From an uncultured Chloroflexales bacterium (GTDB taxonomy: Bacteria > Chloroflexota > Chloroflexia > Chloroflexales > Chloroflexaceae): DNA of 64,000 bases. Positions 32,942-57,437 of this stretch are shown in pieces. The notes under the pieces were generated by a model. That model ran no database searches, had not been told where the DNA came from, and saw only the letters and a list, made by a program, of their open reading frames with translations. How positions within the stretch are numbered: the stretch's first letter is position 1; each line of letters opens with the position of its first letter. The translations under genes were made by a program, and so were the position numbers. The DNA is taken from positions 1 to 64,000 of the forward strand of contig CAKZSI010000030.1 of assembly GCA_937918935.1 (NCBI GenBank), given 5' to 3'.

Positions 32942-33724
32942 CTAGCTCACCGCTACAGGCTGTGCTCCCCGCTGCCGGGCGCCAATGAACGTCAGCAGAT
33001 ACCGGATCCGCTGCGTCAGTTCACAGGCCGTAACAGAGAATGCTCGCAGGCGCGCCTCTTCACCCTCAACCGCCGTCGGGTCGGGAATGGACCAGTGGAG
33101 CTGCTTCTCAGCGCCAGCAAAACTCGGGCAGGCCTCCCGGGCGCGATCGCAGACCGTCACCACGTAGTCGAAATGCTGACCCTGAAACTCATCAATGTGT
33201 TTTGAACGAAGACCCTGCGCGGCTTCACCCAGGATTTCCGCGACCAGCGGATTGACCGTGCCGGGCTGAGTGCCAGCGCTGTAGGCCTCGACACTGCCGC
33301 GGCTGAGTTGTCGCAGCAGCACCTCGGCGAGTTGCGAACGAGCGCTGTTCTCGGTGCAGAGAAAGAGCACCCGTGGCCGCGCCGGCTCGGCCGGCAGGGT
33401 TTCCGGCTCAGGGGCAAGGTGCAGGGAGGGATGCAGCGCGCCGATCACCTGCTCCACCACCACACGCAGCCGGTCAACCTGGAGCCGGTAGTAGCGCAAG
33501 CCGGTGTTGGCGTCACTGGTTCGGCTGCTTACCAGTCCCAGTTGCTCGAGCTGCTTGAGCCGTTCCTCCAGAACCTCCTGCTGAACCCCGAGGCTGGCTT
33601 GCAGATCGCGGAGATGGGCATCGCTGGCAGACAGGCTTTTCACCAACCTCCACACCACCTCATCGACGAGCACGCGCGCGAGCGCAAGAGCGTTATCATA
33701 GTCCGTCGTTCCTGGCGTGGTCAT
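32942..33724 (-). CDS. Fusion of ArsR-like winged helix and low-molecular-weight phosphatase/arsenate reductase
   Basis: 260 residues. Residues about 10-100 form a winged-helix domain like ArsR repressors (VVWRLVKSLSASDAHLRDLQ, then LERLKQLEQLGLVSSR-like sequence). Residues about 117-250 are a phosphatase fold with the Cys-x5-Arg loop CTENSAR at 123-129 (VLFLCTENSARSQLAEVLL), VVTVCDRA and the general-acid loop IPDP. ArsC of this type reduces arsenate using intramolecular thiols; Cys in VVTVCDRAREACPSF are candidates. The N-terminal half has no cysteine, so it lacks the usual ELCVCDL arsenite site. The ATG at 33724 is taken as start. No arsenite pump gene is adjacent. Confidence 0.85.
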   Translation of the reverse strand: MTTPGTTDYDNALALARVLVDEVVWRLVKSLSASDAHLRDLQASLGVQQEVLEERLKQLEQLGLVSSRTSDANTGLRYYRLQVDRLRVVVEQVIGALHPSLHLAPEPETLPAEPARPRVLFLCTENSARSQLAEVLLRQLSRGSVEAYSAGTQPGTVNPLVAEILGEAAQGLRSKHIDEFQGQHFDYVVTVCDRAREACPSFAGAEKQLHWSIPDPTAVEGEEARLRAFSVTACELTQRIRYLLTFIGARQRGAQPVAVS

Positions 33725-33975
33725 AAGCGCCCTCCGAGTGGCGCATCCAGGAAGTTCTCCAACAGGAGGATCCAGGAGGGCTTCGCCCTCCTGCAAACCC
33801 TCTACCCGACCATTGGTGTAAGGCGACTTGCGGGATGCGCCATTAAGTTATACCAATCTTGACTGATATAATAGCACACTAGAGGGCAACATGGAAGGGA
33901 GTATGAGGAGACCCGGTTTGCCCACGCCCCTGTGTGTGGGAGGGTTGCGCGCGTTATGGCCCTTGCTTCCCCGAG
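33725..33975. promoter_or_regulatory. Leader of the ArsR-ArsC gene with hairpin and AT-rich promoter region
   Basis: A family B hairpin (CCAGGAGGGCTTCGCCCTCC, about 33774-33794) lies in the leader. An AT-rich stretch at 33843-33880 is the probable promoter; on the minus strand it contains TATAAC and TATTAT. It includes the 13-mer AAGTTATACCAAT (33845-33857), whose exact complement recurs at 57207. A degraded family A repeat follows near 33903-33935. Confidence 0.5.
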
Positions 33976-34753: not shown

Positions 34754-35893
34754 ATGCTTTCACGCTGGTTGGGATTACTCGCCGCCGGTTTGCTCCTGGC
34801 GGGATGCGCGGCCCCCGCGCGCCCCGAGATCCGCGCTGGCATTGACGCCGCGGCGACCCTCAGCAACGGCGACGCGGGCTTCGCCCGCGCCCTCGCGCCG
34901 CGCCCGTTCGTCTTTCCGCGCGACCATGGTCCCCACCCCGAGTACCAGATTGAGTGGTGGTACTACACCGGCAATCTCTCTGCCGGCGAGCGGCAGTTCG
35001 GCTATCAGTTGACCTTCTTCCGCAGCGGGCTTAGCCCCCGGCCCGTCGCCCGCGAGTCGGCCTGGGGCGCAACCAGCGTGTACATGGCCCACCTGGCCCT
35101 GAGCGACGTCGCCCAGGGGCGCTTCTACGCCTACGAGCGCTTCAGCCGTGACGCCGCCGGTCTCGCCGGGGCCTCAGGCGAACCCTTTCGCGTCTTCCTC
35201 GAAGACTGGTCCGCCACTGGTTCCAGCCCCCAGGGTATGACCATGCATCTGCGCGCCGCCGAGGGCGACACGGCTCTCGATCTGACCCTCGAGAGCCAGA
35301 AGCCGCCCGCGCTCCATGGCGACCAGGGCCTCAGCCAGAAGGGGCCGACCCCCGGGAACGCCTCCTTCTACTACTCGTTGACCCGTATGGCCACCACCGG
35401 CACGATCCGCCTCGGCGACCAGACCTACGCTGTCAGCGGGTTGAGCTGGATGGACCACGAGTGGGGCACCAGCGCCCTCGAAGCCGGCGCCGTCGGCTGG
35501 GACTGGTTCAGCCTGCAACTCGACAACGGCTATGACCTGATGTTCGCGCAGGTGCGCACCTCTACGGCGGTGAGTTACAGCTTCGGCAGCCTGGTTGACC
35601 CTGAGGGCCGCACGACGCCCCTCGACCCCGCCGAGGTGCAACTGGAGGTGCTGGCGACCTGGCGCAGCCCCGCCTCACAGGCGCTCTACCCCGCCCGCTG
35701 GCGCCTGAGCTTCCCCGGTCTGGCTCTGCGCCTGGAGCTTGAGCCGCGCCTGGCCAATCAGGAACTGCCGGTGTCGGTGGTGTACTGGGAAGGGGCGGTG
35801 CGCATCCAGGGCTCGCGGCAGGGCCGACCCGTCAGTGGCAGTGGCTTTGTCGAACTCACCGGCTACGCCAGGGAGCAGGGGGGGCGCTTCTGA
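34754..35893 (+). CDS. CrtC/AttH-like lipoprotein (putative carotenoid 1,2-hydratase family)
   Basis: 379 residues. A lipoprotein signal ends at Cys18 (LLLAGC). The CrtC/AttH double-lipocalin family is indicated by PHPEYQIEWWYYTGNLSAGE near residue 65, FGYQLTFFRSGL, SFYYSLTRMATTGTI and GLSWMDHEWGTSALEAGAVG followed by WDWFSLQLDNGYDLMFAQVR. Family members include carotenoid 1,2-hydratase and uncharacterised secreted hydrolases. A lipid-anchored form outside the membrane would be unusual for carotenoid synthesis, so function remains open. Its TGA overlaps the ATG of the next gene by one base. Confidence 0.85.
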   Translation: MLSRWLGLLAAGLLLAGCAAPARPEIRAGIDAAATLSNGDAGFARALAPRPFVFPRDHGPHPEYQIEWWYYTGNLSAGERQFGYQLTFFRSGLSPRPVARESAWGATSVYMAHLALSDVAQGRFYAYERFSRDAAGLAGASGEPFRVFLEDWSATGSSPQGMTMHLRAAEGDTALDLTLESQKPPALHGDQGLSQKGPTPGNASFYYSLTRMATTGTIRLGDQTYAVSGLSWMDHEWGTSALEAGAVGWDWFSLQLDNGYDLMFAQVRTSTAVSYSFGSLVDPEGRTTPLDPAEVQLEVLATWRSPASQALYPARWRLSFPGLALRLELEPRLANQELPVSVVYWEGAVRIQGSRQGRPVSGSGFVELTGYAREQGGRF

Positions 35894-36855
35894 TGGCAAA
35901 CCCGCCCCTCACCATCGTCACCGGGTTCCTCGGCAGCGGCAAGACGACCCTCCTGCGGGCGTTACTGGAACGCGGCGCGGGCGGGCGTCGGCTGGGCCTG
36001 GTGGTCAACGAACTGGGGCAGATCGGCCTCGATGGCGACGCCCTCGAACGGGCAGGCGCAGCGCCCCTTGTCGAACTGACCGGCGGCTGTTTGTGCTGCG
36101 AGGCGGGCAGCGATTTCTTGCTGGCCATTGAAGAACTCAGCGATTATGGCCCCGATTGCATCGTGGTCGAGACTACCGGTCTGGCTGAGCCAGGGGGGAT
36201 CATCCGGCACGCCCGTGGCGCCGGCCTGCCACTCGACGCGGTGGTGGCCGTGGCCGACGCCGCCAACCTCGAGGCGGCCCTCAACGCCTCACCGGTGGCC
36301 GCGTGGCAACTCCGCGCCGCCGATCTGATTATCCTCAGTAAGGTGGACCTGGTTACGCCTGCCGAACGCGCCGCTGTCGCGGAGCGGCTCCACGCCATCA
36401 ATCCACGCGCCGCGATTGTTCCGGCAAGCTACGGGCAAGCTCCGCCCGACCTGCTCTTTGGGCCGCGGCTCGACCGGGCTGATCCGCCCCCAGTGCCCGA
36501 CCATCTGGAGCGGGACGCCTTCAGCAGCCTGGCGTGGAGTGGCGACATCCCCCTTCGCCGCGCGGCGCTCGAAGCGGCCCTGCGCGACGCCAGCCCCGCC
36601 GTCTTCCGCGCCAAGGGCATCGTCCACTGCACCGACGCGCCCTGGCCCGACGACGTGCAGTTCGTCTGCGGGCGCATGAGCTTCACTCCCCTGCGCCCCC
36701 GCGCCCCACTCACGCCCCTGAACCGGCTTGTGCTCCTGGGGCCGGGCCTCGATGCCCGAGCGGCGCACTATGCCGCGACCTTCAACGCCTGCGCCGACGA
36801 GCCCGCCCGCGCCGCCGCCTGGCGGGCGCGCTACGCCGCCCTGTTTGATCGGTAG
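35893..36855 (+). CDS. CobW/COG0523-type G3E GTPase
   Basis: 320 residues. The P-loop GFLGSGKTT is at residues 11-19, the metal-binding GGCLCC (a C-x-C-C motif) at 64-69, the Walker B-like ETTGLAEPGGI near 94 and the guanine-specific SKVD near 143. A short CobW C-terminal domain follows. COG0523 proteins deliver zinc, cobalt or other metals to client enzymes. The start overlaps the lipoprotein stop (TGATG), so translation is coupled, which hints at a metal link with that protein. No Zur or cobalamin site is visible. Confidence 0.9.
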   Translation: MANPPLTIVTGFLGSGKTTLLRALLERGAGGRRLGLVVNELGQIGLDGDALERAGAAPLVELTGGCLCCEAGSDFLLAIEELSDYGPDCIVVETTGLAEPGGIIRHARGAGLPLDAVVAVADAANLEAALNASPVAAWQLRAADLIILSKVDLVTPAERAAVAERLHAINPRAAIVPASYGQAPPDLLFGPRLDRADPPPVPDHLERDAFSSLAWSGDIPLRRAALEAALRDASPAVFRAKGIVHCTDAPWPDDVQFVCGRMSFTPLRPRAPLTPLNRLVLLGPGLDARAAHYAATFNACADEPARAAAWRARYAALFDR

Positions 36856-37109
36856 AGTTGCAGAGCTGTGGAGCTGTAAATCAGGAACGTTGTTCTCCAC
36901 CGCTACAGACCGGGTACGTGGGAACGGCGAGCAACCGTCAGGCTGCACCGCTCGATACCTGGCAACGAAACGGTAATGCCCTCCGCCTATAATCAGACTG
37001 ACCGCGACGCTTAGTGCGTCCTTTACTTTCGCTTTATCACTGGATCACCCTGCTGTGTCACAATGAGCGTAGCGCCGGGCAGCATTTCCGGCATGTTTAG
37101 TGTTACTAG

Positions 37110-37152
37110 ATCCAGGGGCTTCCTGCGATATAATTCCAGGAAGCCCCTGGAT
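37110..37152. repeat. 16-bp perfect inverted repeat
   Basis: ATCCAGGGGCTTCCTG (37110-37125) and its exact reverse complement (37137-37152) flank an AT-rich 11-base loop, CGATATAATTC. No T-run follows. It lies 10 bases before the first DnaA box. Confidence 0.9.
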
Positions 37153-37161
37153 GTTGGGGTG

Positions 37162-37192
37162 TTATCCACACTTATCCACAAAATGTGGATAA
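37162..37192. other. Cluster of three exact DnaA-box consensus sequences
   Basis: TTATCCACA occurs at 37162-37170 and 37172-37180 on the plus strand, and as TGTGGATAA at 37184-37192. Boxes 2 and 3 lie within a perfect 12-bp inverted repeat (37169-37180 / 37184-37195) with an AAA spacer. No dnaA or dnaN gene is nearby. The site could be an origin, a DnaA titration or regulatory site, or chance. Confidence 0.7.
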
Positions 37193-37344
37193 GTGATCCG
37201 GTGTACTGACTACATTTAGTGGGGCAGGTCCCTGGACAGGAGCGGCTACCGAGGCCGCAGCGCAACCTTCCGGGTCGTTCGCTTTATATTCCTGCTGAAC
37301 CGACACATACGTAATTATTACGCTGTGAACTGAGTTTTTCAGTA

Positions 37345-37540: not shown

Positions 37541-38395
37541 TTAAACCCTTTCCAGCAGATCATGCAACACCGGCGCCACCTCGGCCAGCGCCGGGGGCAG
37601 GTGATCGCCACGGAGAATGGCCTGCCCGAGGGGCGAGCGTTTCAGTTCCAGCAATTCGCGCTCAAGCTCGTTGCTCATCGAGACATCGCGGAGGATCTTA
37701 CCGTCGCGGAAGGTGATCACCCGCCGGGCCGCGGCGGCCACCTCGGTATTGTGGGTCACGATCACCAGGGTCACGCCCTGCTCGCGATTCAGGCGCGTCA
37801 GCAGGGCCACGATGTCGGCTGTGTTCTTGCTATCGAGGTTGCCCGTCGGCTCGTCGGCGAGCAGCATGGAGGGCGAGTTGGCTAGAGCGCGCGCGATGGC
37901 GACCCGCTGGCGCTCACCCCCCGAAAGCTGGTTCGGCAGATGGTCCTGGCGCTCGGCCAGGCCCACCATCGCCAGCAACTCCATAGCCCGGGCGCGGCGC
38001 TGCCCCGGGCGCAGCGGCAGTTCATGCATAGGCACCTCGACGTTCTCCCGCGCCGTCAGGGTCGGCAAGAGATTGTGGCTCTGGAAAATGAAGCCGATGG
38101 TGCGGCTGCGAAAGCGATCCAGGTTGCGCACCTTTGACAGCGGCGTCCCGTTGACAATCACCTCGCCCGAGGTTGGCCGGTCGAGCGCCCCGATCAGGTT
38201 CAGCAGGGTGGACTTGCCCGAGCCGGACGGGCCGACGATCGCCAGCACCTCGCCGCGCCGGATCCACAGATCCACCCCGTCGAGGGCCTTGACCGGCACC
38301 TTTTCTCCGTACACACGGGTCAGCGCCCGCGTCTCCAGGATCACCTCGCTGGTTTCGGGCGGCGGCGCTTCCGCCGCAATGACTGGCTCAGCCAT
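37541..38395 (-). CDS. ABC transporter ATP-binding protein (MacB/LolD type)
   Basis: 284 residues from the ATG at 38395; an ATG 24 bases further upstream is possible. Walker A is GPSGSGKS (about residues 55-62), then LSGGERQRVAIARAL and Walker B SMLLADEPTGNLD with the D-loop. VYGEKVPVKALDGVDLWI matches the MacB/LolD opening, specific for FtsX-type permeases. The C-terminal 40 residues extend beyond the usual ATPase. It is the third gene of an adaptor-permease-ATPase operon transcribed leftwards. Confidence 0.93.
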   Translation of the reverse strand: MAEPVIAAEAPPPETSEVILETRALTRVYGEKVPVKALDGVDLWIRRGEVLAIVGPSGSGKSTLLNLIGALDRPTSGEVIVNGTPLSKVRNLDRFRSRTIGFIFQSHNLLPTLTARENVEVPMHELPLRPGQRRARAMELLAMVGLAERQDHLPNQLSGGERQRVAIARALANSPSMLLADEPTGNLDSKNTADIVALLTRLNREQGVTLVIVTHNTEVAAAARRVITFRDGKILRDVSMSNELERELLELKRSPLGQAILRGDHLPPALAEVAPVLHDLLERV

Positions 38396-38424
38396 GGCAC
38401 TCACCTGCTCCTGATGCAAAGAGT

Positions 38425-52929: not shown

Positions 52930-53135
52930 CCGGGACGGTGGGGAGCTGCTGGAAGGGGTTTCTTCCCCTCCCAGCAACTCCAGTCTGGAGGGGTGCGGGG
53001 AGGCATAGCCTCCCCGCGCTTTTGTTCCGCCCGTGGCGGGTACACCCCCGGCGAAGCCAGAGTGAGTCTGCCACTGCGGGCGGAACACTTCGTACCGCGG
53101 AGGGAGGGCTACGCTCTCCGCACTTCCCCCGGACA
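52930..53135. repeat. Palindrome block between convergent genes
   Basis: CTGGAAGGGG-tttctt-CCCCTCCCAG near 52950, GCGGGGAGGCATAGCCTCCC near 52996, a CCGCCCGTGGCGGG / CACTGCGGGCGG hairpin around 53026-53085 and GAGGGAGGGCTACGCTCTCC near 53099. Confidence 0.75.
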
Positions 53136-53164
53136 GGCACGCACAGGGCCGCATGGCGCAATCC

Positions 53165-56100
53165 CTACTCCCACTCACGGAGTTGCCAGGCCCAGTAGCG
53201 TCCGGCCCGCAGCAGGCGCTCCTGGTGGCGCTCCAGCACCACGTAGGCCAGCACCATCAGCAGGCCCACGATCCCCAGGATGACCCACTGGTTCGCCAGG
53301 CGCACCGTGTCAACGGTCATCCACAGTACCCCCGCCACGAAGAAGGCGATCCCTCCCACGAAAGGTACACGCAGCCGCGAGAGGGCGCCGTAGGTCGCCA
53401 TGAGGAGCGACTCGCCGAAGAGGAGCAATGAGTAGAACAGGCCGCCCTCGGGTAGCAGGGCCTGCGCCGCAGTGACGCCGAGCATCAGCATCACCGCCGC
53501 AGCTTCGATCAGTTGCGATACGCGCCGCTGGCCCTGGAAGCGGCGCAGTCCGCCCGACAGGACCAGCAGGTACAACCCCGCCGGGATGACGTACCACTGC
53601 AACTCGCGCACGCCCCAGCCGGCAAGCTGGCTGAGCGCCGCGCCGACGAAGGCCCCGCCCGCCCCGTAGGCGTAGCTGGCCCGTCGCTCGCGCACGGCCA
53701 GGGTGGCCAGCAGCAGCCCCAGGCTCGCCAGGGCGAAGGTCAGCGGGGCGAGTTGCCCGCCCAGAGCGGCGCCAGACGCGAGCAGCACTGCTGCGCCGAA
53801 GGCGCCAACGCCAGTGACGCGCCGCCACAGCTCCAGGCCGAAGTGGACCGCCAGCCAGCCCAGCAGGCTGAGACCCACCAGCTCGAGCACCAGCCAGGCC
53901 GCGGCCCAGGCGCCCTCGAGCCCCGCTGCGGTGTGCGCCAGCCAGGCCCCCGGAACCGCCAGCGCCAGACCGGCCCAGGCCGCCGCCTCGCGCCGCTCGA
54001 TCTGCGCCAGCACGGCGAGCAGCGCCGCCAGCGCCAGCGCGACGCCGGCCAGCGCCCCGTCACTCGCAATGGCAAGAGCCAGGGCCCCGGCCCCGCCAGG
54101 GACGGTACTCCCGTAGCCCCACGGCCTCGCGGCGTTCCAGGGGGCCGGCGCGCGACGCAACCCGGCGCTTGCCAGCGCCTGGAGCCACACCAGCCCCGCC
54201 AGCAAGAAGCCAGCCTGCTCCGGCGGGTTGCGGGGCAACTGCCAGGCGAAGGCGTGGAGCGCCGCCAGGTCGGCTGCGACAAAGGCCAGGGCCAGGAGCC
54301 AGGGTTGCCGGTAGCGCCAGAGCGCCAGGGCATAGAGACCGGCCATGCTCCCCCAGGTGAGCGCGAGGCGGGCCGGGTCGCCCAGGGCCAGCAGCGGCGC
54401 GAGGGGCAGCAGGAAAAAGGCCACCCACTCGTAGGGCAAAGCATAGGCCCGGTCAACGCGGCGCAGGGTCTGGCCGATCAACGCCAGACCCAGGGCCAGA
54501 GAGCAGATCACCAGGGCCAGGTCGCCGAGTTGGGGCCGCCAGGCGCTAAAGAAGCCCTGGCCAGCGGCGACGAGCACACCGGTGGCCAGGAGCGGAGCCA
54601 CACCGTAGCCCAGCAGCGGTTGGCGCCAGCGGTAACTGTGCAACGCCGCCAGCCCCGCCAGGCTCAGGAAAGTGAGCGCAGCGAGGGGATGCCTGTCGAA
54701 GGACTGGGACACGGCCAGCACGGCGGCGAACGCGCCGGCAAGGACGCCCCAGACAATCGCCGGCCAGGTCCAGTAGCGCAAGGCCGTGGCGCGCAGCCGT
54801 TCGCCGCCGAGGGTGTAGGCGGCACTGAGGGCCAGGGCGGTGAGCGTCGCGGCGCGGCGCCAGGCCGTGCCCGGAACGAAACGGTCCAGTGCGAACCAGG
54901 CGGCAAGGAGAGCAGCGCCTAAACTAAGGACGGCCCAGGGCCGGCCCCGCCGCAGGGCGGCCTGCCCGCCGAAGATCAGCGCCAGCAGCAGCGCCGCCGG
55001 AAGTTGCGTCGCGGCGTTTTCGAGGGCCAGGCCGCCGGCAACCAGCGCGATGAAGATCCCCAGCGTCTGGAGGGCGGAATCGTAGGCGGGACGGAGCGCG
55101 CCGGGCCACCAGCGGGCGCTGGCGAAGGCCACCGCCGCCAGCGGCAGGAGGATCAGGCCAATCTGCCCGTATTCCAGAGGCGTAAGGGTGAGCAACGCGC
55201 CCAGCCAGCCGGTAAGCGCGGCGCCCCCGCCGGCAAGCGCCCCGGCGGCCAGACCGCCGCGGCTAGAACCGAGCCAGGCCAGGCGCCCCCGTTCGACCAG
55301 CACGACGCCACTGAGACCCAGGGCCGCCAGCGGGCCCAGGGCGAAGCGTGCCACGTTCAGATCCAGGCCCGCCGGGAGCAGGGCCAGGGCGCCAATGAGC
55401 AGCGCACCGAGGGCCAGCGGCGCAGCAGCGGGGCGCAGCCGCCGTTCGAGGGCCGCGCTCAGCCACAGGTAGGCCAGGGCCAGGAGGGCCAGGGCGAGGG
55501 CCTGCACACGCAGAAGCAAATTGAACTCGGCAAGGATCACCACCAGCGCCAGGGGCGGCGGGGCGACGGCGGCCCAGAACCACCAGACGCGCCCGTCCAC
55601 CCGGTAGCGCAGGACGCAGAACAGGGCGGTGGCCAGGAGAGTGACGCCCAGGGCGAGGCCGTCGCTCAAGCCGGCCAGATAGAGGGTGCAAGCGCCCAGG
55701 GCCAGCAAGGGCACCCCGACCAGGCTGACACGGGCAACGCCCATGGCCGGCCCCGTGGCGCCGGCTGACCGCAGGCGGATGGTAAGGGGGATCAGGGCCG
55801 TCAGGAAGATCGTGGCAACGGCACTTTTCCATCCCTGATCCAGGGCCTCGGGAGCGGCGAAGATCAGGCTGAGGGCGGCAGCCACCGCCGCGCCGGCGTA
55901 GAAAGCCCGCCGCGTGCGCCAGGCGGCGAGCAGGTAGAGCCCCAGACTGACGACCGAGGCCAGTTGCCAGGCAGGGCGCGGGGCCAGATCGAAGAGACCG
56001 GGACGGGCGAGGGCGAAACCGACCACCGGGACGAGCAGGGCGGCTACGGCCTGCAGGTTGGCCCCGGCGGCGCCCAGGGCGGGCTGGCGCGCCATCCACG

Positions 56101-56710
56101 TCCCGAGCCTCCAGAGGGCGACGGTGGTGCCGGCGAGGATGGCGAACTGCACCAGCGGGGAAAAGCTGGCCCAGTTGAAGATCACCAGGGTCAGGCTGGA
56201 TACGACCAGTAAGAACGCCCCCAGGTAGAGCAGGGCGCGGCGAGTGCCCAGAGCGAACAGCGCGGCGCCCCAGGAACGGCCACTCACCCGCGGGGGCGGC
56301 TCGGCAGCGACGGTGGCGGGCGCCGGCGCGCCGGGGGCGGGCGTTGGCGCGACGGGCGCGCGCGGCGCGGCCGTGTCACCGGGGGGCGCGGCGGGCGCGG
56401 GGGCGGGCGGCGCCGCGGCGGGCGGCGCCGCGGCAGGCAACGTGCCGAACCCGGCGGCGGCGTAGTCGGCGGCGATAAGGCCGCGAATGGTGGCCCCCAC
56501 CACCGGTGAGAGACGCTCCTCGGCCACCCAGCGTTGCACCAGAGCGTCAAACTCAACGAATCGCTCCGGCGTGGTGCGCCTGGCCGGGGAGGTCACATGC
56601 GGATTGACGGTGCGCGGTCGCGCAGGGCGGCGCGCCAGCCAGACGATGAGGACCAGAAGCAGCATTGCCGGCAGGGCGGTACACAGAAGCATGGCCAGCA
56701 GATCGGTCAT
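53165..56710 (-). CDS. Very large polytopic membrane protein (DUF2157/DUF2339-like)
   Basis: 1181 residues. One N-terminal helix (DLLAMLLCTALPAMLLLVLI) is followed by a short soluble part (RFVEFDALVQRWVAEERLSP) and a long Pro/Ala linker (about 100-165). After that come roughly 35 closely packed membrane segments with almost no soluble loops, starting RRALLYLGAFLLVVSSLTLV and ending ILGIVGLLMVLAYVVLERHQ. The arrangement, with an early RxLLYLGA motif, resembles DUF2157/DUF2339 proteins of unknown function. AGGAGAGGAGAG precedes the ATG at 56710. GC content is extreme even for this window. Confidence 0.8.
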   Translation of the reverse strand: MTDLLAMLLCTALPAMLLLVLIVWLARRPARPRTVNPHVTSPARRTTPERFVEFDALVQRWVAEERLSPVVGATIRGLIAADYAAAGFGTLPAAAPPAAAPPAPAPAAPPGDTAAPRAPVAPTPAPGAPAPATVAAEPPPRVSGRSWGAALFALGTRRALLYLGAFLLVVSSLTLVIFNWASFSPLVQFAILAGTTVALWRLGTWMARQPALGAAGANLQAVAALLVPVVGFALARPGLFDLAPRPAWQLASVVSLGLYLLAAWRTRRAFYAGAAVAAALSLIFAAPEALDQGWKSAVATIFLTALIPLTIRLRSAGATGPAMGVARVSLVGVPLLALGACTLYLAGLSDGLALGVTLLATALFCVLRYRVDGRVWWFWAAVAPPPLALVVILAEFNLLLRVQALALALLALAYLWLSAALERRLRPAAAPLALGALLIGALALLPAGLDLNVARFALGPLAALGLSGVVLVERGRLAWLGSSRGGLAAGALAGGGAALTGWLGALLTLTPLEYGQIGLILLPLAAVAFASARWWPGALRPAYDSALQTLGIFIALVAGGLALENAATQLPAALLLALIFGGQAALRRGRPWAVLSLGAALLAAWFALDRFVPGTAWRRAATLTALALSAAYTLGGERLRATALRYWTWPAIVWGVLAGAFAAVLAVSQSFDRHPLAALTFLSLAGLAALHSYRWRQPLLGYGVAPLLATGVLVAAGQGFFSAWRPQLGDLALVICSLALGLALIGQTLRRVDRAYALPYEWVAFFLLPLAPLLALGDPARLALTWGSMAGLYALALWRYRQPWLLALAFVAADLAALHAFAWQLPRNPPEQAGFLLAGLVWLQALASAGLRRAPAPWNAARPWGYGSTVPGGAGALALAIASDGALAGVALALAALLAVLAQIERREAAAWAGLALAVPGAWLAHTAAGLEGAWAAAWLVLELVGLSLLGWLAVHFGLELWRRVTGVGAFGAAVLLASGAALGGQLAPLTFALASLGLLLATLAVRERRASYAYGAGGAFVGAALSQLAGWGVRELQWYVIPAGLYLLVLSGGLRRFQGQRRVSQLIEAAAVMLMLGVTAAQALLPEGGLFYSLLLFGESLLMATYGALSRLRVPFVGGIAFFVAGVLWMTVDTVRLANQWVILGIVGLLMVLAYVVLERHQERLLRAGRYWAWQLREWE

Positions 56711-57437
56711 GGGCTCTCCTCTCCTGGGTAGAGGTCTCGACACGCAAACAACGCATCGCTTACACTCTCTCCACAACCCTCCAGAGTGGTGATGTGGAGG
56801 TATGGAGGAGTCGATCCTCCACGTTGGAATGGTCAATGTGGAGGTATGGAGGAGTCGATCCTTCACGCTGGAATGGTCAATACCGAATTACGGACACAAC
56901 CCTTACGGATGATGAACGATGGCGCGGAGCGTTCCGGCAACGGAGCGCTGCACGCCCGTGATTGCAGCTACTGCGTAGTGTACCATACGAAGCTATACGT
57001 TAGCGTAACCAGCAGGTAAACATTCTGTCACCGGCGTGTCACAGGTATCCGAGATTCCGCGTGGGCGCGACCCTGAGTAGTTTGTGAACCAGGTGGTGCG
57101 TCCGGCAAGCTTTCAAATTCAGATTGCAGATTTTGGATTGCAGATTGTCGCGCAAGGCGTCCAGGCGCGCTTTGACGCCACGCTCCTTGCGGAGGGTTGA
57201 AGTGAAATTGGTATAACTTGTCGGATGCACCAGGGGGCGGCTTCGCCACAGGAACATCCCGACAGGAGATTCTTCACTGCAGAGAGGGGAATCATGCAAG
57301 GAAAGAAAGGTAAGGCGACCCTCCACAGCGAACCACTGGTTCGCTAGCCTATGAGCAGTGGGAGAGGGGCGTGGGGAAAGCAGGTTTCCCCAGATGCTTC
57401 ACAAACAGATCGTTTTAGTCTCGAAGAGGTAACAGCA
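56711..57437. other. Long intergenic region with a 44-base tandem repeat
   Basis: 727 bases between divergent genes. The 44-base duplication is listed separately. A double GATTGCAGATT (57122-57132 and 57136-57146), an ATTGGTATAACTT element (57207-57219) fused to AACTTGTCGGATGCACCA, and a family A copy (GTGGGGAAAGCAGGTTTCCC, about 57370) follow. No other gene is evident. Confidence 0.65.
56793..56880. repeat. 44-base direct tandem repeat, two copies
   Basis: Copies at 56793-56836 and 56837-56880 begin TGTGGAGGTATGGAGGAGTC and differ at two positions. Copy 1 holds a GGAGGA/TCCTCC mini-hairpin that the T in copy 2 weakens. It lies 83 bases upstream of the large membrane protein gene start, within its likely promoter/leader region. 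Confidence 0.92.

Follow-up and report, generated by a model that had tools for sequence, protein, structure and literature searches.

The DNA analyzed (the window) is a 64-kb stretch of a draft genome assembly of a Chloroflexales bacterium, which comprises 4,602,940 bases in 85 contigs (genome G000; the stretch is from contig C30). Between two converging genes of the window, one encoding a cobW-type GTPase (positions 35893-36855, plus strand) and the other a MacB-type ABC ATPase (37541-38419, minus strand), lies an element of ~115 bp that extends from a left to a right outer motif (37106-37219) and was delimited by alignment of five congeneric genomes. As the initial annotation had noted, the gap contains three exact TTATCCACA DnaA boxes in 31 bases. 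These are box III (37162-37170, plus strand), box II (37172-37180, plus strand), and box I (37184-37192, minus strand), each assigned by sequence match and by alignment of the cores. Box I is opposed to box II across AAA, and the two boxes fall within a perfect 12-bp inverted repeat (arms 37169-37180 and 37184-37195) that had also been described. To the left of the boxes is the expected 16-bp inverted repeat (37110-37152), with arms at 37110-37125 and 37137-37152 and an 11-nt AT-rich loop, CGATATAATTC (TATAAT). The left outer motif, CTAGATCCAG (37106-37115, plus strand), reads CTAnATnTAG in four relatives (G001, G002, G003, and G004). An inner motif, CTGGATGTTG (37147-37156, plus strand), is located 5 bp before box III and is one base off its consensus, CTAnATnTnG, in the window species, where all three boxes are exact. 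The right outer motif, CTACATTTAG, occupies 37210-37219. The less GC-rich tract that had been assigned to this region is present, although the dip is mild (about 60% versus 66%). The dnaA gene is indeed not nearby but on another contig (C9:13083), and it encodes a DnaA with AAA+ and helix-turn-helix domains. Elsewhere in the window positions 53000-57000 are GC-rich (up to 73%), have A in strong excess over T (skew up to 0.44), and include short tandem repeats at 56291-56881, and a single minus-strand open reading frame (32942-33796) joins parts that, as read by eye, resemble a helix-turn-helix regulator and an ArsC/low-molecular-weight phosphatase.

The presence of the boxes had been judged unlikely by chance, and the counts agree. 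The window contains three TTWTNCACA sites, all in the element, versus an expectation of 0.54 from dinucleotide shuffles. Three such sites anywhere in 64 kb were reached in 1 of 100 shuffles, and the chance of finding them within 31 bp is negligible. The point is settled by the relatives, which conserve the cluster, indicating that it is real. Over the whole window genome the exact TTATCCACA boxes number 21 (6 for the reversed control), and clusters of exact boxes were found at four places: on C9 beside dnaA, on C30 (the element), on C57, and on C71.

In G001 the sequence that follows cobW carries a matching element, as does the corresponding position in G002, G003, and G004. Absence of the boxes from this locus in relatives had been named, jointly with a skew minimum and a densest box cluster beside dnaA elsewhere, as the outcome that would refute the initial reading; all 5 genomes of the genus keep the boxes. 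The columns identical in all five congeneric genomes make up 75% of the core, 71% of the hairpin, and 73% of the right CTACATTTAG motif, compared with 7-36% of the flanks. The hairpin arms change together, being CTTCC/GGAAG in three species, CTCCC/GGGAG in G001, and CCTCC/GGAGG in G002, and the inverted repeat is absent as such in Chloroflexus and others. An RNA gene or terminator was considered and rejected because the core persists in lineages that lack the hairpin; terminator-like sites fall outside the element.

A DNA search revealed that other genera have cores laid out in the same way. A core model of 53 positions, built from 12 cores, matched 64 of 82 Chloroflexales genomes at E <= 0.01 and 40 of the 82 at E < 1e-6 (the latter tallied by eye), with one strong match each in nearly all genomes. 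A second, partial match to the model was seen in one genome (G020), and the model had no match in 18 of the 82 genomes, among them the close relatives G008, G023, and G054. In a 301-genome sample of the phylum no full-length match to the core was found outside Chloroflexales, the best partial match having an E value of 6e-6. A search of the window genome for further copies of the whole element returned only partial matches, at C57 and to the element's own palindromes. The element is a conserved, usually single-copy sequence that is kept about once per genome across the green non-sulfur bacteria of the order Chloroflexales.

The core has the order 10-bp CTAnATnTnG, box III, box II, and opposed box I; read as its reverse complement, the window core is box I, 3 bp, box II, 1 bp, box III. 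Boxes I and II are separated by 3 bp in all 31 aligned cores, and boxes II and III by 0-2 bp in 30 of the 31, the exception (G021) having 12 bp. The CTAnATnTnG motif, with small departures allowed, stands to the left of box III in the 31 aligned cores, and its distance from box III is 11 bp longer in two of them (G051 and G018). Both kinds of longer gap amount to about one extra helical turn, which suggests that the factors involved must share the same face of the helix. Of these cores, 19 come from species outside the training set of the model, and all 19 have CTAnATnTnG, although they were still picked by that model. Box II is degenerate in most other species (2-3 bases off consensus in 17 of 31 aligned genomes). 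Among all loci examined, the CTAnATnTAG motif is almost confined to those of the element. In the whole 4.6-Mb window genome CTANATNTAG occurs at two sites, one of which is the element, whereas the reversed control gave 28. The second CTANATNTAG site (C77:8339) has no exact box nearby; a one-mismatch box, CTATCCACA, lies about 110 bp away.

A site of this kind might be a DnaA titration sink, or a datA-like site promoting ATP hydrolysis, in which case it would hold DnaA without recharging it. Three good boxes are held together in one place, as a sink would require, and a single conserved cluster outside oriC fits any DnaA-regulating role. However, a sink needs boxes alone, whereas in the element the 3-bp gap of the opposed pair is fixed, a non-DnaA motif is retained in phase with the boxes, and the copy number stays at one. 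Moreover, three boxes make a small sink in a genome that has 21 exact boxes, and we consider this role rather unlikely.

At most loci where the neighbors are clear (gene calls in the relatives were made by a simple codon-composition method), the element falls between genes, and the neighbors differ by lineage. It lies on the 3' side of an ABC ATPase gene in five genera (g1, g4, g5, g11, and g13), on the 5' side of ruvB in three (g3, g6, and g17), on the 3' side of a CAAX-type protease gene in genus g9, on the 5' side of a Zn-ribbon-like gene in family f2, and on the 3' side of a VWA gene in family f4. Hence, the element is probably not the promoter of one gene. A promoter would be expected to remain beside the gene it serves, and changing neighbors are the pattern that a trans-acting site would produce. 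The initial annotation was correct in placing the boxes in a gap between converging genes, but its suggestion that they regulate those genes is unlikely to hold, as the core is kept while the neighbors change. Control of the neighboring gene or genes by DnaA through this site would be in keeping with the recurrence of the same ABC ATPase gene beside the core in five genera and with the four genomes (G006, G020, G025, and G034) in which the core lies directly on the 5' side of a gene and is followed by a TATAAT-like hexamer. This reading must contend with the variety of adjacent genes and with the frequent placement of the core at a neighbor's 3' end, and the only promoter-like match in the window falls outside the element. 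It therefore seems to us quite improbable.

The initial annotation had also raised the possibility of a replication origin away from dnaA, and densely clustered boxes between genes would suit a chromosomal origin. GC skew gives this proposal no support at the element itself. In the window genome, for which skew was computed from sampled stretches of the draft, it has negative values to the left and to the right of 37.2 kb. In favor of an origin, skew does turn nearby, about 10-20 kb away in the window and about 10 kb away in G002. The homologous element of a 5,258,541-bp genome is inside 120 kb over which skew stays positive except for two small dips. Thus, the GC-skew minimum sought as a mark of oriC does not coincide with the element, and without a skew flip there the element is probably not an origin. 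Note that the argument from skew is only moderate because skew is weak in these genomes; the coarse skew of two finished Chloroflexus-like genomes was noisy. In addition, a strongly AT-rich unwinding region is not evident at the element, and another box cluster, beside a bifunctional-nuclease gene, is at a skew turn in two families. That the element is the chromosomal replication origin is thus very improbable.

The other cluster looks more like a displaced replication origin and is a candidate for the true oriC away from dnaA. It consists of three DnaA boxes in direct orientation, spaced by 20 and 21 bp and flanked by a CNNM/CorC-type gene and the bifunctional-nuclease gene (C71:79368-79417 in G000). 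The triple was found in 54 of 82 Chloroflexales genomes at <= 3 mismatches, where the control gave 0 matches. The strand-adjusted GC skew turns at this triple in two finished genomes, each from a different family (the Roseiflexus-sized genome and the 5,258,541-bp genome), but not in the window genome. A second cluster having the I, II, III order, with spacings of 6 and 1 bp and without CTAnATnTAG, was found at C57:80273-80306 of G000. It is also present in G002 and G004, and the skew turns there in G000 and G002. In the published C. aurantiacus genome, oriC is drawn at twelve o'clock on the map and dnaA is listed as Caur_0001 (PMC3150298). Distances between the element and dnaA range from about 45 kb to 1.9 Mb.

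Another reading, in which the sequence is what is left of a mobile element with inverted ends and the boxes are incidental, would account for the CTAnATnTAG-type ends, the hairpin, and the locations that differ by lineage, but it is just as improbable as an origin given the one copy per genome in nearly all, the conserved core within changing flanks, and the many lineages in which the hairpin is missing and the boxes remain.

Our preferred, albeit tentative, interpretation is that the element is a conserved, usually single-copy DnaA-binding site that would regulate the initiator in trans, most likely as a lineage-specific counterpart of the DnaA-reactivating sequences (DARS) of E. coli. We infer that two DnaA molecules meet head to head on box I and its opposed partner, box II, and that a third DnaA binds box III in tandem with that on box II. 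A partner protein would read the 10-bp palindrome CTAnATnTAG on the same helix face and would thereby fill the role played at DARS by flanking DNA, IHF, and Fis. The resulting complex would release ADP from DnaA, allowing ATP to be reloaded. Speaking against this reading are the spacings, which are not those that DARS1 and DARS2 share, the departures of box II in 17 of the 31 aligned genomes, the 18 of 82 genomes that the model did not match, and the wide variation in distance to dnaA. Beyond the box cluster itself, the present analysis adds the order-wide conservation, the CTAnATnTAG motif, and the dependence of location on lineage.

The literature found describes DARS-type control of DnaA in proteobacteria alone, and a search on DnaA boxes and Chloroflexus returned nothing relevant at the level of titles and abstracts. 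If the element is a DARS counterpart, then a nucleotide-exchange switch on the initiator would not be peculiar to E. coli and its relatives. The same box logic, shared by the members of an order in a distant phylum while the locations shift, would suggest that recharging of the initiator is general or recurrent. The element offers a compact DNA target for testing DnaA recharging in a deep bacterial branch, and the CTAnATnTAG motif could serve as bait for the partner protein.

Box clusters already known provide three points of comparison. The first is the dnaA-adjacent boxes of Chloroflexales, which like the element use TTATCCACA. In the Roseiflexus-sized genome the region by dnaA contains an opposed pair, TTATCCACAaaatTGTGGATAA, that resembles the pair of the element. 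Unlike the element, these boxes are located beside scpB-dnaA, and the copy in the window genome is without CTAnATnTAG. The second is datA of E. coli, which the initial annotation had put forward together with DARS as a possible analog. Of the roles proposed there, a datA/DARS-like site is the best supported, although it is the DARS half of the analogy that stands, through the match in box order and orientation, whereas the datA arrangement differs. The datA minimal unit is composed of boxes 7, 2, and 3 around an IHF site (PMC5742627). The element is likewise an intergenic DnaA-box cluster off the origin, but its boxes are not arranged like boxes 2, 3, and 7, which in datA surround an IHF site; they form a compact opposed pair plus one tandem box.

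The third and closest comparison is with DARS1 and DARS2. The DARS core has three boxes, equally spaced in DARS1 and DARS2, with box I opposed to boxes II and III (PMC5742627), and boxes I and II bring about head-to-head contact of ADP-DnaA (PMC8682772). The E. coli boxes, located by inspection of NC_000913, are TTATCCACT-5-TGTGGATAA-3-TGTGTATTA for DARS1 and TTATTCACC-5-TGTGGATAG-3-TGTGAAGAA for DARS2. The element has this box order and orientation, with box I opposed to II and III. It too is intergenic and away from oriC and dnaA, and it is flanked by sequence that would serve other factors. If the cluster by the nuclease gene is the origin, then the element lies at 0.53 and 0.48 of the replichore from that putative origin in two finished genomes, the values for DARS1 and DARS2 being 0.66 and 0.41. 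The element differs in its distant phylum and in its spacings, which are 3 and 0-2 bp rather than 5 and 3 bp, and owing to this difference and to an activity that is only inferred we have not filed it as a member of DARS. E. coli DnaA favors box pairs that are 2-3 bp apart (PMC11317965), compared with 3 bp for boxes I and II of the element and mostly 0-2 bp for boxes II and III. Conservation of the DARS2 core extends over gamma- or beta/gamma-proteobacteria (PMC4245941, PMC5742627), and because DARS cores are reported only for proteobacteria in the literature found, common descent with the element is unlikely. Where DARS1 has its flank and DARS2 its IHF and Fis sites, the element has the CTAnATnTAG motif. 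It is conceivable, if a shade more tentative than the DARS-like role itself, that Chloroflexales evolved a DnaA-recharging site independently of proteobacteria, using an opposed pair plus one box and a partner of their own that reads CTAnATnTAG.
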